Of a stretch of DNA of 64,000 bases, positions 7,865 through 52,062 are shown piece after piece (within the stretch, counting starts at the first letter, position 1; every line of letters begins with the position of its first letter). The position numbers were made by a program, and so were the translations under genes. The notes beneath the pieces were generated by a model that did not search any database, had not been told where the DNA came from, and was given only the letters and a program-made list of their open reading frames with translations. The DNA is from Rudanella paleaurantiibacter. GTDB lineage: Bacteria > Bacteroidota > Bacteroidia > Cytophagales > Spirosomataceae. The stretch lies in contig NZ_WELI01000005.1 of assembly GCF_009184635.1 (NCBI RefSeq), forward strand, positions 496,001 to 560,000. Direction: 5' to 3'.

Positions 7865-7937
7865 TTTGTCATTCCGACGCAGGAGGGATCTTACAGTCAG
7901 TCAATTAGAAAGATCCCTCCTTCGTCGGGATGACAAA
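7865..7937. repeat. Long imperfect inverted repeat, GTCATTCCGACG type
   Basis: Arms of about 28 bases (7865-7892 and 7910-7937) begin with TTTGTCATTCCGACG and close with CGTCGGGATGACAAA, with a loop of about 17 bases. From general memory this type of inverted repeat is common in Bacteroidota intergenic regions. It lies between argF' and argB and could stabilise or end the transcript. The rest of the 7676-7996 gap shows only AT-rich sequence and the preceding repeat. Confidence 0.7.
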
Positions 7938-19330: not shown

Positions 19331-19349
19331 AATTGTGATTGTTTATTAA

Positions 19350-19432
19350 GTGAATGAGCGAATGGATGAATAGGTGAATAAAAGCGGCTCGAGAGACATT
19401 CGCCAATTCACTCATTCACTCATTCGCTCATT
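19350..19432. repeat. Intergenic hairpin repeat, GAATGAGCGAAT-type word
   Basis: Left arm TGAATGAGCGAATGGATGAA (from 19351), right arm CACTCATTCACTCATTCGCT (19410-19429), loop around 20 bases. Both arms consist of the word GAATGAGC/GAATGAGT in variants. It lies between the tRNA-Leu 3' end and tig. Confidence 0.7.
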
Positions 19433-19441
19433 GTACTGTTG

Positions 19442-19523
19442 TACGGGCGGAGGGACTCGAACCCCCATGCCTTGCGGCACCAGATCCTAAGTCTGGCACG
19501 TCTACCAATTTCGCCACGCCCGC
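19442..19523 (-). tRNA. tRNA-Leu (anticodon TAG)
   Basis: Read on the minus strand, the 5' acceptor strand GCGGGCG (19517-19523) pairs with CGCCCGT at the 3' end. The D-loop AATTGGTAGACG, anticodon loop CTTAGGA between CCAGA and TCTGG, the long class II variable arm TGCCGCAAGGCAT and the T-arm GGTTCGAGTCC are all clear. The discriminator is A and CCA is not encoded. Confidence 0.95.
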
Positions 19524-21495: not shown

Positions 21496-23745
21496 ATGAA
21501 TGATGTAGTCGAACCCGTCATTGATCTGGAACTGGAACGCCAGGAGATTCTGAAACGCTACCGACGTCTACTCCGGGCGGCCAAACCTCTGTTGAAGGAA
21601 AATGACGCTAAACTGATCAAGAAGGCGTTTAACACCTCGGCCGAAGCGCACAAGAACATGCGTCGCCGGTCGGGCGAACCGTATATCTACCACCCGCTCG
21701 CCGTGGCCCAGATTGCCGTGGAAGAAATTGGGTTGGGCACTACATCAATCGTAGCCGCTCTGTTGCACGATGTGGTCGAAGACACCGACATGACCATCCC
21801 CGATATTGATCGGCTGTTTGGCGCAAAGGTGGCCCGCATCATCGACGGATTGACCAAAATCTCCGGCATTTTTGAGTACGGCACCTCGCAGCAGGCCGAG
21901 AATTTCCGCAAAATGCTCCTGACTTTGTCGGACGATGTGCGCGTGATTCTGATCAAACTCGCCGACCGACTGCACAACATGCGGACGCTCGACTCGATGC
22001 CCCGCGACAAGCAGCTCAAGATTGCGTCGGAGACCATCTACATCTACGCCCCGCTGGCCCACCGGCTCGGTTTGTACGCGATCAAGTCGGAGCTGGAAGA
22101 TCTGTACCTAAAATACGTAGAGCCCGAAGCGTACAAAGACGTAGCCCGGAAGCTCCGCGAAACGAAGGCCGGCCGCGACCGGTTCATCAGCAAGTTTATC
22201 GAGCCAATTGAAGAGAGTTTGCAGTCGACCGGCTACAAATACGTGGTTCGGGGCCGTCCTAAGTCGATCTATTCCATCTGGAATAAACTGAGCAAGTCGA
22301 AAAAGCCGTTTGAGGAGATTTACGATTTGTTTGCCGTTCGGATCATTCTGGACGTGCCACCGCAACAGGAAAAAGCGGCCTGTTGGCGGGCGTACTCTAT
22401 CGTTACGGATCATTACAAGCCCAACCCCGACCGACTTAAAGACTGGATCAGTACCCCGCGCGCCAACGGCTACGAATCACTGCATACCACGGTGATGAGC
22501 AAAACCGGGCAATGGGTTGAGGTGCAGATTCGGACGGAGCGGATGAACGAAATTGCCGAGAAAGGGTACGCGGCCCACTGGAAATACAAGGGCAACGATA
22601 CACAAACAGGCCGTGGCATCGACCTCTGGATCAGTCAGGTTCGCGACATGATCGAGACAACTGAGAAAGGCGAAAAAGCCGGGGCCATTGAGTTTCTGGA
22701 TGACTTCCGCAGCAACCTTTACAGCGAAGAGGTCTTCGTATTCACGCCCAAAGGCGACCTCAAAGTACTCCAACGGGGGGCCACCGCGCTCGATTTTGCC
22801 TTCGACATTCACACCCAAATTGGGGCTAAGTGCATGGCGGCCAAAGTCAACAATGTGCTCGTACCGCTGAGCCACGTACTGCAAAACGGCGATCAGGTCG
22901 AGGTCATCACCTCCAACAAACAGAAGCCCAACGAAGACTGGCTCCGGTTCGTGGTAACATCCAAGGCCCGTACCAAGATCAAAGACCTCATAAAAGAGGA
23001 AAACAAGCGGTACGTGACCGATGGCCGCGATATGGTAGCCAAGAAGTTGAAAACGCTCCGGCTCGACATGACCAATGAGCTGCTGAACCAGCTGCGGGCG
23101 TTTTTCGGCTCAAAAACCACGGCCGACTTTTTCTACCGGGTCGGAAAAGGGCATATTGAAACCAAAGAAATTGTTCGGTTCAAGTCGGAGAAGGAAGCCA
23201 AGGAAAACCGGCAACACAAACTCAATACCGACAATATTGCCGACGGCAAGAGCTTCACCAAAGAGCTCAAGAAGATGCACGGCGACCGGGCCGATGCCGA
23301 CATGCTCCTGATTGGGGAAGACATGGACAAGATCGACTACACACTCTCCAAGTGCTGTAACCCAATCTCGGGCGACGATGTGTTTGGGTTTGTGACCATC
23401 AACGACGGCATCAAGATTCACCGGGTATCGTGCCCCAACGCCGTCGAACTGATGTCGAACCACGGTAATCGGATTATCAAAGCCAAATGGACCTCACAAC
23501 GCGACCTGGCGTTTCTGGCGGGGTTACGCATTACAGGTACCGACCGCGTCGGGCTGGTTAACGACGTAACCCGGATCATCAGCAACGAGCTCAGCATCAA
23601 TATGCGCTCGGTCACAATTGATTCGAAAGACGGCATTTTCGAGGGCAAAATTAAGCTCTATGTCCACGACACGGCCCACCTTGAAACCCTCATGAAGAAG
23701 CTCGACAACGTCGACGGGGTGTACGAAGTAGTACGCTTCGACTAA
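21496..23745 (+). CDS. rsh: Bifunctional (p)ppGpp synthetase/hydrolase (RelA/SpoT homologue)
   Basis: A 749-residue long Rsh protein. An HD hydrolase domain (HPLAVAQIAVEEIG, ALLHDVVEDTDMT, KLADRLHNMRTL) comes first, then the synthetase domain (GRPKSIYSIWNKL, IYDLFAVRIIL, ESLHTTVMS, EIAEKGYAAHWKYKG). A TGS domain follows (VFTPKGDLKVLQRGATALDF), then the helical and zinc-finger-like region (SKCCNPISGDDVFGF) and a C-terminal ACT domain. Both catalytic halves look intact, so it should both make and degrade (p)ppGpp. It leads a plus-strand group with the Fur-like gene and purA; ppGpp inhibits PurA in some bacteria, so the neighbourhood is suggestive. Confidence 0.93.
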   Translation: MNDVVEPVIDLELERQEILKRYRRLLRAAKPLLKENDAKLIKKAFNTSAEAHKNMRRRSGEPYIYHPLAVAQIAVEEIGLGTTSIVAALLHDVVEDTDMTIPDIDRLFGAKVARIIDGLTKISGIFEYGTSQQAENFRKMLLTLSDDVRVILIKLADRLHNMRTLDSMPRDKQLKIASETIYIYAPLAHRLGLYAIKSELEDLYLKYVEPEAYKDVARKLRETKAGRDRFISKFIEPIEESLQSTGYKYVVRGRPKSIYSIWNKLSKSKKPFEEIYDLFAVRIILDVPPQQEKAACWRAYSIVTDHYKPNPDRLKDWISTPRANGYESLHTTVMSKTGQWVEVQIRTERMNEIAEKGYAAHWKYKGNDTQTGRGIDLWISQVRDMIETTEKGEKAGAIEFLDDFRSNLYSEEVFVFTPKGDLKVLQRGATALDFAFDIHTQIGAKCMAAKVNNVLVPLSHVLQNGDQVEVITSNKQKPNEDWLRFVVTSKARTKIKDLIKEENKRYVTDGRDMVAKKLKTLRLDMTNELLNQLRAFFGSKTTADFFYRVGKGHIETKEIVRFKSEKEAKENRQHKLNTDNIADGKSFTKELKKMHGDRADADMLLIGEDMDKIDYTLSKCCNPISGDDVFGFVTINDGIKIHRVSCPNAVELMSNHGNRIIKAKWTSQRDLAFLAGLRITGTDRVGLVNDVTRIISNELSINMRSVTIDSKDGIFEGKIKLYVHDTAHLETLMKKLDNVDGVYEVVRFD

Positions 23746-23748
23746 GAC

Positions 23749-23854
23749 AATGAACAACGAACAGTGACCAACGAATAACAACCAGCATCCACTGTTTACT
23801 GCTCGTTGTTCGTTGGTCACTGTTCATTGTTCGTTGGTCACTGTTCGTTGTTCA
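23749..23854. repeat. Intergenic hairpin repeat, GTTCGTTGGTCACT word
   Basis: The right half contains GTTCGTTGGTCACTGTTC twice in tandem with a 21-base period (about 23808-23850). The left half (AATGAACAACGAACAGTGAC) is its inverted counterpart. This word is not seen elsewhere in the window. It fills the gap between the rsh and Fur-like genes. Confidence 0.7.
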
Positions 23855-35579: not shown

Positions 35580-36365
35580 ATGACCAACGAACGATTACCC
35601 GGTATTTCCCAATTTGATCTGAGCGGCCGTGCGGCCATAATCACGGGCGGCTCCAAAGGGCTGGGGCTGGCGATGGCGGCCGGACTGGCCTCGGCTGGCG
35701 CTAACCTTTTACTCGTAAACCGCAATGCCGACGAGGGCATCCAAGCCGCCGAAGCCCTCAGCCGCGAATACGGCGTACAGGCCAAGGCGTTTGCCGCCGA
35801 CGTGACCGATCAGACACAGACCGAAGCGATGGCCCAAGCCGCTATGGATGCTTTTGGCCGAATCGACATTCTAATCAACAGTGCCGGTATCAATATTCGG
35901 GGGGCCATCGACGAGCTATCATCGGCCGAATTCCAACAGGTGATGAGCATCAACGTGCACGGCACCTGGCTATGTTGCCGGGCCGTCACGCCGTTTATGA
36001 AGGCGGCCGGCAAGGGCAAAATTATCAACCTGGCCAGCACCCTCGGACTGGTGGGGCTGGCCAACCGAACGCCCTACACGTCGAGCAAAGGGGCTGTGGT
36101 GCAAATGACCCGAGCTCTGGGTCTGGAGCTGGCTCCGTTCAACATCAACGTCAATGCGATCTGCCCCGGCCCGTTTCTGACGGCCATGAACATACCCATT
36201 GCCGATACTGAAGAAGGTAAAAAGTTTGTGGTGGGCGCCACGGCCCTCGGCCGCTGGGGCGAACTGCGCGAAATTCAGGGAGCTGCTATTTTTCTGGCGA
36301 GCGATGCGGGCAGCTACATGGTTGGCTCTATGCTCACCGTAGACGGCGGCTGGACAGCCCGGTAA
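35580..36365 (+). CDS. Short-chain dehydrogenase (gluconate 5-dehydrogenase-like)
   Basis: A 261-residue classical SDR with GGSKGLGLAMA as the NAD(P)-binding Gly motif, NSAGIN as the structural motif and LASTLGLVGLANRTPYTSSKG carrying the catalytic Ser, Tyr and Lys. CPGPFLTAMNIPIAD and a final VDGGWTAR are typical. It is likely cytoplasmic and reduces or oxidises a sugar acid or polyol. It lies between the TIM-barrel gene and the MFS transporter, fitting a pathway in which an oxidised sugar is imported and reduced. Confidence 0.85.
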   Translation: MTNERLPGISQFDLSGRAAIITGGSKGLGLAMAAGLASAGANLLLVNRNADEGIQAAEALSREYGVQAKAFAADVTDQTQTEAMAQAAMDAFGRIDILINSAGINIRGAIDELSSAEFQQVMSINVHGTWLCCRAVTPFMKAAGKGKIINLASTLGLVGLANRTPYTSSKGAVVQMTRALGLELAPFNINVNAICPGPFLTAMNIPIADTEEGKKFVVGATALGRWGELREIQGAAIFLASDAGSYMVGSMLTVDGGWTAR

Positions 36366-36366
36366 A

Positions 36367-36472
36367 CGAAGAATGAGCGAAAGAGTGAATGTCTGACGCG
36401 TAATCTCACTCCCCGACAGCCCACTCTTTCACCCCTTCACTCTCTCAGTCTTTCACTCTTTCACTCTTTTTC
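36367..36472. repeat. Intergenic hairpin repeat, GAATGAGCGAAA-type word
   Basis: Left arm GAATGAGCGAAAGAGTGAAT (36371-36390); right arm about 36420-36470 with CACTCTTTC repeated several times. Same word family as 11.1 and 19.35 kb. It ends 2 bases before the MFS start codon, so it lies in the leader of that gene. Confidence 0.65.
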
Positions 36473-36474
36473 CA

Positions 36475-37791
36475 ATGAAAACGACCCGCGTACGCTACGG
36501 GATGCTGGCCCTTGTGTTTGTCAACGTCGTGATTAACTACCTCGACCGGAGTAACATTTCGGTGGCCGGCCCGGCCCTGAGCAAAGACCTTAACCTGTCG
36601 TCGGTCGATTTGGGGTATATTTTCTCGGCCTTCGGGTGGACCTACGCCCTGCTACAAATACCGGGGGGCCTCGTAGCCGACCGATTTGGGCCACGGGTGC
36701 TGTACGCGTTTTGTCTGGCTACCTGGTCGCTGTCGACGGTGTTTCAGGGCTTCGCGCGGGGTTTTGCCTCCTTGTTTGCCCTTCGGCTGGCCACGGGTGC
36801 CTTCGAAGCCCCCTCCTACCCAATCAACAACCGGATTGTAACAAGCTGGTTTCCCGACAACGAGCGGGCGTCGGCCATTGCGCTTTATGTATCGGGGCAG
36901 TTTATCGGGCTGGCGTTTCTGACGCCTATTCTGGTCACGATTCAGCACTACGCGGGCTGGCAGGGACTTTTCATAACAACGGGACTTGTGGGACTGGTAT
37001 GGGCCATTGTGTGGTACGCTCTCTACCGCGACCCGCTCGACCACAAAACCGTCAGCGACGCCGAACTGGCGCATATCGAAGCGGGCGGGGGGCATTTTCG
37101 GGGGCAAACCGCCAAAACCGATGGCACGTCTATTTGGCAGTGGGTCAACCTGAAACAGGTGTTCTCGCGCCGGACGCTTTGGGGCGTGTACATCGGTCAG
37201 TTTTCGGTCAACGCCATGCTCTGGTTTTTCCTGACGTGGTTCCCCACGTATCTGGTCAAATACCGGGGGCTCGATTTTATCAAGTCGGGGTATCTGGCGT
37301 CGGTGCCGTTTCTGGCCGCCTGCGCGGGGCTGTTGCTTTCGGGCTTTGTGTCGGACCGGCTTGTGCAGCAGGGCCGCTCGGTGGGGGCCGCTCGCAAAAC
37401 GCCCATTATTATCGGGATGCTGCTCTCGGTAAGCATTGTCGGGGCCAACTACACCGACGATACCGCCCTGATTATCTTCTTCATGTCGCTGGCGTTTTTT
37501 GGGTCGGGCATGGCGCTCATTTCGTGGGTGTTCGTCTCGTTGCTGTCGCCCCGGCACCTGATTGGCCTCACGGGTGGGGTGTTCAACTTCATGGGCAACC
37601 TGGCGTCGATTATTGTCCCGATTGTGATCGGGTATCTGGCCAAAGATGGCGACTTCAAACCCGCGCTCGTGTTTATTGCCGTACTTGGTTTTATCGGGGC
37701 CTGCTCATACAGTTTTTTGGTCGGCAAGGTCGAGCGGGGCACGGTGACGCCTGCGTCAGATACAGCGGCTTTATTGTCGGAGCGGGAGTGA
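36475..37791 (+). CDS. MFS transporter, anion:cation symporter (sugar acid) type
   Basis: A 438-residue 12-helix carrier. The N-terminal helix ends in NYLDRSNISVAGPAL, the ACS-family motif seen in glucarate, galactonate and tartrate transporters, followed by GWTYALLQIPGGLVADRFG (the MFS motif A region) and RLATGAFEAPSYPINNRIV. The second half starts around residue 220. It would import a sugar acid with protons, the probable substrate of the neighbouring dehydrogenases. It closes the plus-strand cluster. Confidence 0.87.
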   Translation: MKTTRVRYGMLALVFVNVVINYLDRSNISVAGPALSKDLNLSSVDLGYIFSAFGWTYALLQIPGGLVADRFGPRVLYAFCLATWSLSTVFQGFARGFASLFALRLATGAFEAPSYPINNRIVTSWFPDNERASAIALYVSGQFIGLAFLTPILVTIQHYAGWQGLFITTGLVGLVWAIVWYALYRDPLDHKTVSDAELAHIEAGGGHFRGQTAKTDGTSIWQWVNLKQVFSRRTLWGVYIGQFSVNAMLWFFLTWFPTYLVKYRGLDFIKSGYLASVPFLAACAGLLLSGFVSDRLVQQGRSVGAARKTPIIIGMLLSVSIVGANYTDDTALIIFFMSLAFFGSGMALISWVFVSLLSPRHLIGLTGGVFNFMGNLASIIVPIVIGYLAKDGDFKPALVFIAVLGFIGACSYSFLVGKVERGTVTPASDTAALLSERE

Positions 37792-41420: not shown

Positions 41421-41545
41421 TGGGGTTTATCGTTTTTAGTTTATCGTTTCTGGTTGTGCGGGGCAAGTTGCCCGTGAACCGGAACTTGCTTAACTGAGCG
41501 GAAGCCCCCAAGAACTACAAACCAAAAACCATAAACTAAAAACGC
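41421..41545. repeat. Intergenic hairpin repeat, TTTATCGTTTTTAG word
   Basis: Left arm TTTATCGTTTTTAGTTTATC (41426-41445), right arm around 41516-41544 ending CATAAACTAAAAACG, with about 70 bases between the arms. The word matches the start of the 7.68 kb repeat. It lies between the GT51 gene and the trmD terminator. Confidence 0.65.
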
Positions 41546-41596
41546 TGTAAGCCGAACGGGCGGGGTTTCAACCCCGCCCGTTCGGCTTACAGCGTT
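41543..41596. terminator. Very long perfect-stem bidirectional terminator
   Basis: The 25-base arms (41545-41569 and 41572-41596) are perfectly complementary and almost abut each other. It lies between convergent genes, and the right arm touches the last base of the trmD stop codon. Confidence 0.75.
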
Positions 41597-42273
41597 TATT
41601 CACCCAGTAAATCGGGCCGTCGGGCACGAGTACGGGCCAAAGCCTGTTCGTAGCGCCATTCATCAATTTTAGCTTCGTGCCCCGACAGCAGAATATCGGG
41701 CACCTTCATCCCCTCCCACTCAGCCGGGCGTGTGTACACAGGTGGGGCCAACAGATCGTCCTGAAACGAATCGGTCAGGGCCGAAGTCTCATCGTTGAGT
41801 ACTCCCGGTATCAGACGGATAATGGCATCGGACAGCACAGCCGCCGGCAACTCACCGCCCGACAACACAAAGTCGCCGATACTAACTTCCCGCGTGATGA
41901 ACCGCTCCCGAATCCGCTCGTCGACACCTTTGTAATGCCCGCACAGAATAATCAGATTCTGCTTCAGTGAGAACGTATTGACCGTCTGCTGATTAAGCCG
42001 TTGCCCATCGGGGGTCATGTAAATCACCTCATCGTAGGTACGTTCGGCCTGCAAAGCACGGATACAGCGGGCAATGGGTTCGATCTGCATCACCATACCG
42101 GCTCCTCCGCCAAACATGTAATCATCGACCCGCCGGTGCTTGTCGAGGGTATAGTCGCGCAGGTCGTGCACCACCACTTCGGCGTGTCCGGCCTGTTGCG
42201 CCCGCTGCAAAATAGAGTGGGCAAAGTAGCTATCGAGCAGGCGCGGCAGGCAGGTAATAATATCAATCCTCAT
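41596..42273 (-). CDS. trmD: tRNA (guanine-N1)-methyltransferase
   Basis: A 225-residue SPOUT methyltransferase that makes m1G37 in tRNAs. [18 protein letters not shown] is the substrate-binding motif, [17 protein letters not shown] and [16 protein letters not shown] build the trefoil-knot AdoMet site. Family length is normal. It overlaps the end of rimM by 11 bases, the classic rpsP-rimM-trmD order, but rplS does not follow here. Confidence 0.95.
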
Positions 42274-45208: not shown

Positions 45209-45745
45209 GTGCCAACCGGAGCAATACCGGCCTATAAGCCGGATTCTGTCACTGGATTATCGGTAAAACCGACGCACCGGGTCTTATCATTTATCTGGGA
45301 TCGCCGTCACCGACGACCTCTATCGACCTACCCGCGACAGCATCGGCCAGCCGAAGCCAACCTACAGGAACGAGCCGCCCCTAATCTGCCGCATATTTGG
45401 TCTTTCAGCCCATAAGGTTTATCCTGCCCCGTCGGTCACCCGCCGGGCGGTAGGCCCTTACCCCACCTTTTCACCCTTACCCGAAAACAGTTTACAGTTT
45501 GTTGTTTACAGTTTATAGTTGGCTTACGCAGGCAAGACTGCTTCGCGGAACTGCAAGCTATAAACAGAAAACTGTAAACTGTTTTCTGGCGGTATATTTT
45601 CTGTGACACTGGCTGTCAGACGGCCGTTCCCAGCCGCCTGCCTTCCCGTTAGGAAGTATGGTGCTCTGCGCTGTCCGGACTTTCCTCCAACCCAGTTCGG
45701 GTCAGCGATAAGACAACCGGCACCGCTCCGATTGGCACGCGTTGG
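45209..45745 (-). ncRNA. rnpB: RNase P RNA with an inserted hairpin in P12
   Basis: Read on the minus strand: the 5' P1 strand GTGCCAATCGGAGC pairs with GCTCCGGTTGGCAC at the 3' end. The universal GAGGAAAGTCCGGAC, ACAGAAAATATACCGCC, GGTAAGGGTGAAAAGGTG and ACAGAATCCGGCTTATAGGCC blocks are in order. It is the catalytic RNA that trims tRNA 5' ends. At the P12 position, between ACCGCC and GGTAAGGGTG, lies a 104-base hairpin repeat (45483-45586) in place of the usual stem of about 20 bases. A -7 promoter element is 6 bases upstream of the given 5' end. Confidence 0.95.
45483..45586. repeat. Hairpin repeat inside RNase P RNA, CAGTTTACAGTTT word
   Basis: Outer arms GAAAACAGTTTACAGTTT (from 45483) and AAACTGTAAACTGTTTTC (to 45586) are fully complementary. 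Inside are a second copy of the word (GTTTACAGTTTATAG) and its partner CTATAAACAGAAAAC, then a small hairpin. Its construction is like that of the intergenic repeats, but it is transcribed as part of rnpB and would fold as a long P12 helix. Confidence 0.8.
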
Positions 45746-48422: not shown

Positions 48423-50567
48423 TCAGTACCCGCCGAAATACTTGCGGGTGCCCCATTCGAGGGTTGCCAGGGCCAGAATCATGAAAAAGAGCCACCGCCA
48501 GTTGATCAGCTCATTCAGCTCTTCGGTGCTGCTCAGGCGGGCGGGCGTTTCGCGGCTGCTCAGGTCGCGCACGAGGTTAGCCACCGAGGCCGTGTTGTAA
48601 AACTTACCCCCGGTCTGCGAGGCCAGTTGCCGCAGCAAGCCGTGGTCGGCCGTGGTGTTGAGGGCTTCGAGTTGCAGATCGCGCACAATAAACTGCCCTT
48701 CCGAAACTTCATTCTTACCACTTAAGTTGGTGGTTGCGCGGAAGCGGTAGGCTCCTTCGGGCAGGCGGCTGATTTCGAACCGGCTATTATCGCTTGTTGG
48801 GGTGTAGTTGAAACTACGTGTGATACCGCGCTCGTCCAGAATACTCAGGTTAACGGGCTTGTCGTAGATTCGCTCGTAAATATCGTTGTAAAGCTCCGTC
48901 TCAAAAATGACCTTTTCGCCCGCTACAAACTCATTTCGGATGGGGTACACGCGCAGCTTGCGCCGGTCTTCTTTCACCGAAATAAGCTGAATAACCTTTT
49001 GCAGCATTTCGTCGATCACCTCCTGTTTGTCGGTCAGGTCAAACTCTTCCATGCGCCATTGCCAAAGGCCTTCGCCCGCCAGCACAGCCGCCTTACGCGG
49101 ACGGTCGGGCGAGCCGGCCGTTACGTTGAGCGCAAGCAGGGGTTTCTGGGTTTGTACGCTGCCCACCTGCTGCCAAAGCACCACCTGACTGCCGGGCAAC
49201 AGCCGAAACTCACCGTAAGGCACCGACATGGGCGGCATCTTGGTGATAATATCGAGCCGGGCTGCATCCAGGTTCAATTGTTTGTAGGCATCGTTGTAGC
49301 GGGCAGTTACCTTATCGCTCTGACCGGGCAGGGCCGTTACCTGCATTACGGGGTTCAGCGTATTGAACGGCCCCATAGCCGACTGGTTCCCCAGCACAAA
49401 CAGCACTGGGGTGGTGTTGTTACGCGCCAGCAGTTGTTGCACCGAGGCCGTACTGGCCCCACCATTGTCGGGAATCTGGTGGAGAATGATAAGGTCGTAT
49501 TTCTTATCGGTAGGCGGTGGCCCTTCGATGCCGTTAATCATCCGAACGTCGAGCTCGTAATTCTGATTTCGTTCGAGCATACTCCGAATCGCCTTCACGT
49601 CGGGGTGCGGAGCCAGAGCCAGTAAGAGAACCTTCTCGCGCCCGTCGATCACGTCGATGTACACGTCCTGCCGGTTGTTTCGGGTGCTGAACTCGCCCGG
49701 CTGCGGCACCACCTCAACGGTAAACCGCTGAACGCCTTTCTGGGTAGCTGTGGTCTGAAACGTCACCGAACCAAAGGTCTGGTTCTGCCCGAAAGATACG
49801 CTTTGCCGACCCACCTCTTTGCCGCCCTGCCGCAGCACCACAATACCGGCCCGGCCGCTAAAACCGTTACTCGTCACTTCCACCTGAATCGGAAACTGGT
49901 TGTTCAGATACGCAATCCGGTTAGCTACGATGCCTTTGATAGCAATGTCGCGCTTCGGAATGGTGTCGCCGAGCCCCACAGCATGCACCGAAAATGGATA
50001 TTGCCCAAACGTAGGCGAAAGCCCCTGATTGAAGATACCATCGGAGATAAGCACCACATCGGTAAGATGCCGACCTTCGTAATCTGACCGGATACCCGAC
50101 AGCAATCCCGACAGGTTGGTCGACCGCTGGGTAAATGGAATCTGGGTCAGGTCTGTCCCTTCGGTCATAGCCGAGTCGCTCAGGGTCCGTACTGATACAT
50201 CCAATCCGGCACTGCTCAGTTGCTGCTGCAAGGCTTGCAGATTGCTGAGAGCAGTGGTGAGCGCGGGCCGTCCGGCAGCGGCTACCGACTCCGAGTTGTC
50301 TACGGCCAGTACCACTTTCGGTTTTTCGGTGAGCGTCTGTACACTGCGGATGAGCGGATTCACCAGCAGAAAACAGAGTAAGCTCACAACCAAAAACCGA
50401 ACGGCCGCCAGTGCATAGCGGACGTTGCGATCCCAGAACGAAACAGAGTCAGAAACACCGGTACTCAGCCGTGCTGGCAGCGGTTGATACAATGCCGCTG
50501 CGTACAGCGCCCCTACCAGCAAACAGACCAGCACCCACCAGGGTGAGGATTGGAAAATGACGTTCAT
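48423..50567 (-). CDS. Membrane protein with internal VWA-like domain (BatA-like)
   Basis: The start at 50565-50567 (MNVIFQSSPWWVLVCLLVGA) gives 714 residues; the longer frame to 50621 lies in a hairpin repeat. There are two N-terminal membrane helices (about 9-26 and 50-72). A VWA-like fold then starts at VVLAVDNSESVAAAG (a MIDAS-like DxSxS) with VVLISDGIFNQG later. A long beta-rich extracytoplasmic region (about 270-660) and a final membrane helix (RWLFFMILALATLEWGTRKY) complete it. It resembles the long BatA/GATase-associated VWA proteins of Bacteroidota; function is unknown. No MoxR or DUF58 gene is adjacent. Confidence 0.78.
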   Translation of the reverse strand: MNVIFQSSPWWVLVCLLVGALYAAALYQPLPARLSTGVSDSVSFWDRNVRYALAAVRFLVVSLLCFLLVNPLIRSVQTLTEKPKVVLAVDNSESVAAAGRPALTTALSNLQALQQQLSSAGLDVSVRTLSDSAMTEGTDLTQIPFTQRSTNLSGLLSGIRSDYEGRHLTDVVLISDGIFNQGLSPTFGQYPFSVHAVGLGDTIPKRDIAIKGIVANRIAYLNNQFPIQVEVTSNGFSGRAGIVVLRQGGKEVGRQSVSFGQNQTFGSVTFQTTATQKGVQRFTVEVVPQPGEFSTRNNRQDVYIDVIDGREKVLLLALAPHPDVKAIRSMLERNQNYELDVRMINGIEGPPPTDKKYDLIILHQIPDNGGASTASVQQLLARNNTTPVLFVLGNQSAMGPFNTLNPVMQVTALPGQSDKVTARYNDAYKQLNLDAARLDIITKMPPMSVPYGEFRLLPGSQVVLWQQVGSVQTQKPLLALNVTAGSPDRPRKAAVLAGEGLWQWRMEEFDLTDKQEVIDEMLQKVIQLISVKEDRRKLRVYPIRNEFVAGEKVIFETELYNDIYERIYDKPVNLSILDERGITRSFNYTPTSDNSRFEISRLPEGAYRFRATTNLSGKNEVSEGQFIVRDLQLEALNTTADHGLLRQLASQTGGKFYNTASVANLVRDLSSRETPARLSSTEELNELINWRWLFFMILALATLEWGTRKYFGGY

Positions 50568-50579
50568 AAAGAAAGTAGT

Positions 50580-50673
50580 GAGGAGACAGAAGCGAGGAGC
50601 GAGGAGAAAAGGGTTGCTCACGAATAAGTAACGTCGGGCTCCGTTTTCTCCTCACTCCTCGCTTCTGCCTCCT
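50580..50673. repeat. Intergenic hairpin repeat, GCGAGGAG purine word
   Basis: Left arm AGGAGACAGAAGCGAGGAGC (50581-50600) with GGAGCGAGGAGAAAA continuing; right arm TTTTCTCCTCACTCCTCGCT (50644-50663) with TCTGCCTCCT after it. The loop is about 28 bases. Related purine-rich tracts occur in frame within icmF. It fills the gap between fabG and the VWA gene. Confidence 0.7.
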
Positions 50674-50678
50674 ATATC

Positions 50679-51425
50679 CTAAGTAAGCATTCCCCCGTCT
50701 ACCTGGAGCACCTGCCCCGTAGTGTAGCGGGATAAATCAGAAGCCAGGAATACGCAGGTATCGGCTACCTCTTCGGGTTGGCCGCCCCGCTTGAGCGGGA
50801 TCTGCTGCTTCCATTCTTCTACGGCTTTTTCGTTGATCTCGCCGGTCATTTCGGTTTCGATGAAGCCCGGAGCCACGGCATTGGAGCGGATATTCCGCGA
50901 GCCCAGTTCGAGAGCCACCGACTTGGTAAAGCCGATAATACCTGATTTAGAGGCTGCGTAGTTGGCCTGACCCGCGTTGCCCCGGATACCTACTACCGAC
51001 GTCAGGTTGATAATCGACCCGGCCTTCGCTTTCATCATGGGTTTGATGGCGGCTTTGGTCAGGTTGAAGACCGACTTAAGGTTAACGTTGATAACCACGT
51101 CCCATTGTTCTTCGGACATGCGCATCAGCAAACCATCTTTGGTAATGCCGGCATTGTTGACGAGCACGTCAATCGAACCGAAATCAGCCAGTACGGCGGC
51201 TACCAGTTCTTCGGCCGCTTTATAATCCGAGGCATCTGACCGGTATCCTTTGGCCGTAATCCCGAACGCCTTCAGCTCGTCTTCCAGCGCCTGCCCTTTT
51301 TCTACGCTCGACAGGTACGTAAACGCCACCTGAGCACCTTCCTGCGCGAAACGCTGGGCAATAGCCCGACCAATTCCGCGTGAGGCACCCGTAATGAGCG
51401 CCACTTTTCCTTTCAATAAATCCAT
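50679..51425 (-). CDS. fabG: 3-oxoacyl-ACP reductase
   Basis: A 248-residue SDR reductase of fatty-acid elongation. TGASRGIGRAIAQRF binds NADPH, NNAGITKDGLLMRM is the classic FabG loop, INLTSVVGIRGNAGQANYAASKSG holds the catalytic Ser, Tyr and Lys, and NAVAPGFIETEMT and a final QVLQVDGGMLT complete it. Length and all active-site residues are standard, so it is probably the housekeeping FabG. It heads a minus-strand pair with the VWA gene across a hairpin repeat. Confidence 0.93.
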   Translation of the reverse strand: MDLLKGKVALITGASRGIGRAIAQRFAQEGAQVAFTYLSSVEKGQALEDELKAFGITAKGYRSDASDYKAAEELVAAVLADFGSIDVLVNNAGITKDGLLMRMSEEQWDVVINVNLKSVFNLTKAAIKPMMKAKAGSIINLTSVVGIRGNAGQANYAASKSGIIGFTKSVALELGSRNIRSNAVAPGFIETEMTGEINEKAVEEWKQQIPLKRGGQPEEVADTCVFLASDLSRYTTGQVLQVDGGMLT

Positions 51426-51794: not shown

Positions 51795-52062
51795 GCTCAC
51801 ATCCTGCCGGGCTTGATGCCTGCCTGGTTTACCCCAAAACTCCGTCGGTATTCATTCGCAAAACAGATGGCTACTAGCTGCTTAAGTCATTACTAACGTT
51901 TTAAGTATTTTCTGAAAAACACACATTATATCCCTAAAATCGGGTTTCTATCCCTAAAAAATTAAGATCTCTAAACAGAAAAATAGCTTTGGACTCAATC
52001 AAAAAGCAGGCAGCCGAAAATGCTGATCAGAGTAGGCACCATAAATAATTTGACTTATTACG
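51795..52062. other. AT-rich region without recognised gene
   Basis: Between the remnant and the collagen-like lipoprotein gene the sequence becomes AT-rich and shows no family motif on either strand. The stretch 51426-51628, between fabG and the remnant, also holds nothing recognisable. Confidence 0.5.

Follow-up and report, generated by a model that had tools for sequence, protein, structure and literature searches.

The RNase P RNA gene of Rudanella paleaurantiibacter carries, in the P12 helix of its product, a member of a family of quasi-palindromic repeats that is dispersed through the genome. The insert is present in two species of the genus and lacking in a third, and more distant relatives have the same arrangement built from other words. 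As these relatives have other repeats at the same P12 site, an essential ribozyme has repeatedly hosted repeat DNA. It is likely that dispersed word-built hairpins recurrently enter P12, or are rewritten there, the ribozyme being tolerant of a long helix at this place.

The RNase P RNA gene and its P12 insert

The 64,000-nt stretch of R. paleaurantiibacter DNA that was analysed (the window) holds a class A RNase P RNA gene, rnpB (Table 1), which matches RF00010 across all 367 model positions (249.1 bits against a gathering score of 100), the extra bases being located in the P12 block; the rest of the RNA keeps its conserved blocks, as the initial annotation had claimed. This is the sole RF00010 match found in a genome that is 99.93% complete, and the working RNase P RNA must therefore come from this gene, whose product, judging from that single-match status, would be catalytically active in vivo. 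Elsewhere in the window an Rfam DUF805b RNA motif is found at 52004-52038 (40.4 bits).

P12 is a terminal helix of the specificity domain of RNase P RNA. Its role is described in passages of PMC2858038 as variable and sometimes dispensable, for example in cyanobacteria. In the window gene the sequence between ACCGCC and GGTAAGGGTG had been described as one word arranged in a long inverted repeat, and this agrees with the inverted repeat found there, whose 41-nt arms are 83% complementary. Folded alone as RNA, P12 reached -49.0 kcal/mol, whereas its shuffles averaged -22.7 (z -7.48) and none of 200 did as well. Its helix has 18 consecutive outer base pairs, with further pairs inside, both in R. 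paleaurantiibacter (G000) and in its sister species (G001), and when the full 506-nt RNA is folded, its minimum-energy structure retains the hairpin in the two species alike. The sequence of the arms recurs every 7 nt (identity 0.63 at that lag, a value reached by 0 of 2000 dinucleotide shuffles) through words such as AGTTTAC, AGTTTTC, and GGTTTAC, and the loop is of the GCGCGAAGCGGTYTG...GCGTAAGCC type. With up to two mismatches, CAGTTTACAGTTT occurs six times in the window, five of these inside P12 (shuffle mean 1.4), so that P12 holds almost every occurrence in the window, and the word's other copies lie elsewhere in the genome.

The P12 hairpin had also been said to be built like the intergenic repeats of the window. 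This is correct as to build, for five other hairpins (Table 1), all placed at gene junctions by the ORF list, have a significant period of 7 or 8 nt (0 of 2000 shuffles in each case), but not as to content, since their words differ from those of P12. Two control inverted repeats, at 7865-7937 and 41540-41597, had neither a 7- nor an 8-nt period.

Table 1. The RNase P RNA gene, the parts of its P12 insert, and the other word-built hairpins (positions are those of the window)
Feature	Position	Strand	Evidence or setting
rnpB, class A RNase P RNA gene	45219-45724	minus	RF00010, 249.1 bits, model 1-367
P12 insert, quasi-palindrome of 7-nt words, member of dispersed family	45483-45586	minus	inverted repeat, genome copies, period, fold
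P12 hairpin, 5' arm (RNA sense)	45549-45589	minus	inverted-repeat search
P12 loop region, CCGCGAAGC...GCGTAAGCC type, common to part of the family	45521-45548	minus	inverted repeat and loop test
P12 hairpin, 3' arm (RNA sense)	45480-45520	minus	inverted-repeat search
Word hairpin, 8-nt period	19349-19432		flanked by an ORF and a tRNA gene (19442-19523, minus)
Word hairpin, 7-nt period	23747-23854		between two codirectional ORFs; 2 nt past the stop of 21496-23745
Word hairpin, 8-nt period	36372-36469		occupies the gap between ORFs 35580-36365 and 36475-37791
Word hairpin, 7-nt period	41431-41544		between convergent ORFs
Word hairpin, 7-nt period	50581-50673		where ORFs 48423-50621 and 50679-51425 meet; overlapped by the GTG start listed for the former

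Copies in the genome and in congeners

A search of G000 with P12 as query returned 85 HSPs at E <= 10 and, once strands and overlaps had been merged by hand, 23 other places at E <= 0.001, the best three of which match P12 at 79-80% over about 90 nt, arms and loop included. P12 is thus a member of a dispersed element family that shares both arms and loop, and the word proposed for a genome-wide search does have copies elsewhere. By a simple ORF caller, 22 of the 23 places lie outside ORFs of at least 70 aa and the remaining one overlaps an ORF of 100 aa; by the same caller, 18 of the 22 places with neighbours on both sides sit between codirectional ORFs, and several of them directly adjoin stop or start codons. 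The P12 loop is matched, in either orientation, by 12 of 43 elements of G000 and G001 (p < 0.01), some of which are mutually orthologous and hence not all independent.

The sister species has the P12 insert in a form that is 91% identical. The two rnpB genes differ at 14 of 506 positions, nine of them among the 107 of the insert and five among the 399 elsewhere (Fisher p 4.8e-4), which indicates that the insert drifts faster than the ribozyme. A second congener (G002) has a minimal P12, CC AATT GG with a 4-nt loop, and its genome yielded no match to the G000 element at E <= 0.001; no rnpB was found in a third (G003, 71% complete). About 25 nt from the 5' end of its rnpB, G002 has a 7-nt-word hairpin with a different word, AGTGAACAGAGATCAGCCAACAG (locus L030, 1926-2007).

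P12 across the Spirosomataceae

An rnpB gene was found in 188 of 200 sampled genomes of the family, and 73 loci were examined: three from the genus, the 30 from the family that scored best, and 40 picked by hand (30 for great length, 10 short), a choice by which long P12s are over-represented in the set. P12 could be delimited in 66 of the 73 loci and in six more, all of these long. Its length (three stem bases included) was 8-38 nt in 50 of the 66 and 77-120 nt in the other 16. A significant 7- or 8-nt period was present in 21 of the 22 long P12s, the exception being that of G049. The words vary even among close species (AATGAGTG, AATGAATAATGG, GTGAAGAGTGAAG, GTCGTAAG, TTAGGGCTTAGGGG), and the family-wide comparison revealed no single P12 sequence common to relatives. 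One P12 shared by all relatives, with no copies elsewhere, is the pattern that would mark an ordinary lineage-specific helix; the P12s differ, and the G000 element is found in 23 other places, observations that together support the proposal that an essential ribozyme carries a repeat-derived helix. On an rnpB tree of 66 rows, from which P12 was left out, a minimum of nine changes between long and short is needed, eight of them forced by starred branches, a count that pools gains and losses and depends on the choice of rows.

One locus (L082, in G132) stands outside the P12 counts. Its P12 is short, and a 7-nt-word hairpin (AGTGAACAGTTATCAGTAAACAG...) begins directly after the CCAAATA block, from about base 401, in what we take to be the P16/P17 region. 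Word hairpins thus enter RNase P RNA at a variable helix other than P12 as well.

Expansion of P12 words in their own genomes

Six of the 22 long P12s (those of G000, G028, G130, G169, G067, and G076) were searched in the same 20 genomes (E <= 0.001); the HSP counts include self and reverse-complement matches, and the high ones are lower bounds. The G000 word gave at least 26 HSPs at home and at least 31 in G001, against 0-5 in the other 18 genomes, and that of G028 at least 50 at home against 0-3 in the others. The G130 word was found at least 27 times in G130, at least 57 times in G154, and at least 22 times in G000, followed by G001 (15), G040 (9), G169 (7), and the rest (0-2); that of G169 gave five HSPs at home, 15 in G154, three in G040, two in G130, and none in the rest. 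The G067 word matched only itself in G067 and was present in G076 (7), G044 (4), G169 (3), G040 (2), and G002, G142, and G130 (one each), and the G076 word matched only itself in G076, with one HSP in G053. The match between P12 word and own genome is therefore strong for G000/G001 and for G028, fair for G130, weak for G169, and absent for G067 and G076; that is, three of the six words are clearly expanded at home, one is weakly so, and two are without expansion.

P12 beyond the family

A pattern scan of named genomes for P12s of 80-110 nt returned 43 contigs, eight of them from Spirosoma or Fibrisoma. Among the other 35, eight show a 7- or 8-nt period that is significant (p < 0.025 at either lag; binomial p 2.7e-4), and the word-built P12s outside the family include those of MAGs of Brocadiaceae, Nitrospinota, Desulfobacteraceae, and Kiritimatiellota. 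The own-genome search outside the family covered one of these eight, the Brocadiaceae MAG, whose P12 gave at least 73 HSPs at home (2.2 Mb) and had no match in the eight further genomes tested, so that this member of the Planctomycetota is an independent example of a P12 word matching its own genome. The remaining 27 of the 35 (among loci L138-L179, from Acidobacteria, Gammaproteobacteria, Lachnospiraceae, and other MAGs) are without such words, which indicates that P12 also lengthens in other ways.

Turnover of the elements

Six element sites of G000 were followed in congeners. The same element was present at all six in G001; at the same sites G002 has a different hairpin in four and none in two, and at the three that could be traced in G003 there is a different hairpin in one and none in two. 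Other junctions of G002 (gaps of at least 40 nt at nine loci) hold a hairpin in about 5 of 12 cases, counted by hand, and two of five such junction hairpins of G002 and G003 are clearly word-built. The idea that orthologous junctions are specially conserved hairpin sites was not adopted, as four of six in G002 is no clear excess over about five of 12 among other gaps; because so many ordinary junctions also hold hairpins, fast turnover rather than a special site is indicated. Between G000 and G001 one element (L012/L186) has switched orientation in place, with collinear flanks. Inspection by eye revealed no target-site duplication, as a MITE would leave, either at P12 (G000 compared with G002) or at L017, a site that is empty in both G002 and G003, in a comparison limited by flank divergence.

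Origin of the insert and its alternatives

The reading favoured here is that of recurrent entry, or rewriting, of dispersed hairpins. The genome contains a family of non-coding quasi-palindromes of about 90-105 nt, in which arms made of 7-nt words enclose some 28 nt of loop, and one copy lies in P12. Copies would settle, or an existing hairpin would be rewritten, where extra self-folding DNA is harmless, namely at the junctions of genes and the end of the P12 helix; the length of P12 being free, the RNA would fold the insert into a longer P12 and keep working. P12 thus appears to be a tolerated landing or rewriting site. Several findings count against this reading: at E <= 0.001 neither the G067 word nor the G076 word has a further copy at home, that of G067 is commoner elsewhere, that of G130 is commoner in G154 than at home, only 12 of the 43 elements clearly share the P12 loop, 27 of the 35 long P12s outside the family lack such words, and no movement of an element was caught. 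A bolder version, which we put forward tentatively as a possibility, is that quasi-palindromes with 7- or 8-nt words form a class of DNA, as yet without a name, that spreads by itself in several phyla, swaps its words by lineage, and keeps re-entering P12, which would then act as a trap recording each genome's current word; certain hosts may even cleave the RNA at this point and use it as two fragments.

Cutting has also been considered as an explanation in its own right, in which the insert would be an intervening sequence whose long P12 helix is cleaved by RNase III, leaving the RNase P RNA to function as two pieces. The cutting reading is compatible with a repeat origin, since the two differ only in the fate of the RNA. 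The uninterrupted outer pairing of P12 in G000 and G001 and the existence of selfish intervening sequences that interrupt 23S rRNA (PMC4990558) speak for it; yet a literature search returned no fragmented bacterial RNase P RNA among the matches listed. In addition, many class A RNAs have a moderately long P12, and we know of no cutting in them. Cleavage is viewed as unlikely.

A somewhat less probable view holds that P12 hairpins are selected structures for the assembly, stability, or regulation of RNase P, with sequence free to change. Across 175 pairs in four P12 comparisons (a Spirosoma trio of G178, G148, and G163, the pair G169/G040, and G000/G001), two double changes that keep pairing were found where 0.16 were expected. 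Against this, none of the nine changes between the G000 and G001 inserts is compensatory and four of 43 pairs are broken, and there are close species without the long helix altogether. Moreover, eight intergenic elements also have double changes of this kind, eight against 3.9 expected, with half of them from the one inverted element, so the effect need not concern RNase P. The excess of double changes would fit either arm-to-arm correction or weak selection on the hairpin.

It is very improbable that the insert is an ordinary lineage-specific P12 grown by local duplication, and that it resembles intergenic repeats because one and the same mutational process acts at both kinds of site, with nothing passing between them. 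The G067 and G076 words, with no copies at home, and the quasi-palindromic build common to all these hairpins would be expected from such growth, but the G000 P12 matches other sites across arms and loop alike, and a loop shared with scattered copies is not predicted by convergence. For the window species ordinary P12 drift was rejected on account of the 23 genome copies and the shared loop.

Least credible of all is that RAYT (TnpA-REP) transposases mobilise the elements as REPs, even though Y1_Tnp genes were present in 11 of 11 genomes searched (some as weak matches only) and Bacteroidetes subclass 2.6 genes are, in passages of PMC6006769, flanked by atypical hairpins with copies elsewhere, because the element does not flank the Y1 genes at the 20 loci inspected (nine genomes, within 1.3 kb): the inverted repeats listed there are mostly perfect palindromes (GTCGCTAACGCGAC, GTGCCGTAGGTACGC, and others), none read by eye was a CAGTTTAC-type hairpin, and the two purine-rich word-like repeats near Y1 genes lie 840 and 992 nt away (L207, L210). 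The perfect palindromes that accompany Y1 genes at L208, L211, L217, L219, and other loci are perhaps cognate REPs.

What recurrent entry or rewriting would mean for RNase P is that an essential ribozyme has repeatedly carried repeat-derived helices, and P12 therefore offers a constant and readily located position for tracking, in different phyla, how repeats of an otherwise elusive class are gained, lost, and altered in their words. Two further questions become directly open to experiment, namely the size of foreign helix that RNase P can accommodate and the ability of a bacterium to live with an RNase P RNA in two pieces.

Comparison with known systems

Rickettsia palindromic elements are likewise palindromes of about 100 nt that settle in genes. 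They are known mainly inside protein genes, whereas the G000 elements lie nearly all between genes, and a literature search found no passage on rnpB for them. REP/RAYT systems, including those of Bacteroidetes subclass 2.6 as portrayed in part of PMC6006769, are similarly palindromic, intergenic, and multi-copy; the P12 elements are longer and word-built, no fixed tag was seen in them, and they are not beside the 20 Y1 genes inspected. The intervening sequences of 23S rRNA offer another parallel, in that a foreign hairpin resides in a peripheral helix of an essential RNA, but these are cut out, and the example described in PMC4990558 carries an ORF.

Heptameric intergenic repeats share with the P12 elements the 7-nt word in intergenic DNA. 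Two reports describe TAACTGA in Beggiatoaceae, cyanobacteria, and five Bacteroidetes (PMC4679880), and GGGAATC in Xanthomonas, sometimes in convergent (inverted) pairs (PMC4692102); as presented there, each has one fixed word, in contrast to the P12 elements, and the term RNase P was absent from the texts of both. No report of repeats in the P12 of Bacteroidetes was found in open-licence literature searched by title and abstract, which is weak evidence given that most subscription papers fall outside that scope.

The closest precedent is cyanobacterial, and it had been invoked in the initial annotation. Vioque is said to have described, in 1997, STRR (short tandemly repeated repetitive) sequences in the rnpB of heterocyst-forming cyanobacteria. 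STRRs are direct head-to-tail tandem repeats of one 7-nt word. Like them, the P12 elements consist of 7-nt words, have copies elsewhere in the genome, and lie inside the RNase P RNA gene; unlike them, the P12 words are not head-to-tail repeats but are set in a long inverted repeat, vary within an arm and between species, and occur in other phyla. The cyanobacterial parallel holds as a precedent, though it seems to belong to something more general, since P12s made of 7-nt words occur in other phyla too. Repeats in RNase P RNA have their precedent in cyanobacterial STRRs, and it is the breadth of their spread here that is unexpected.
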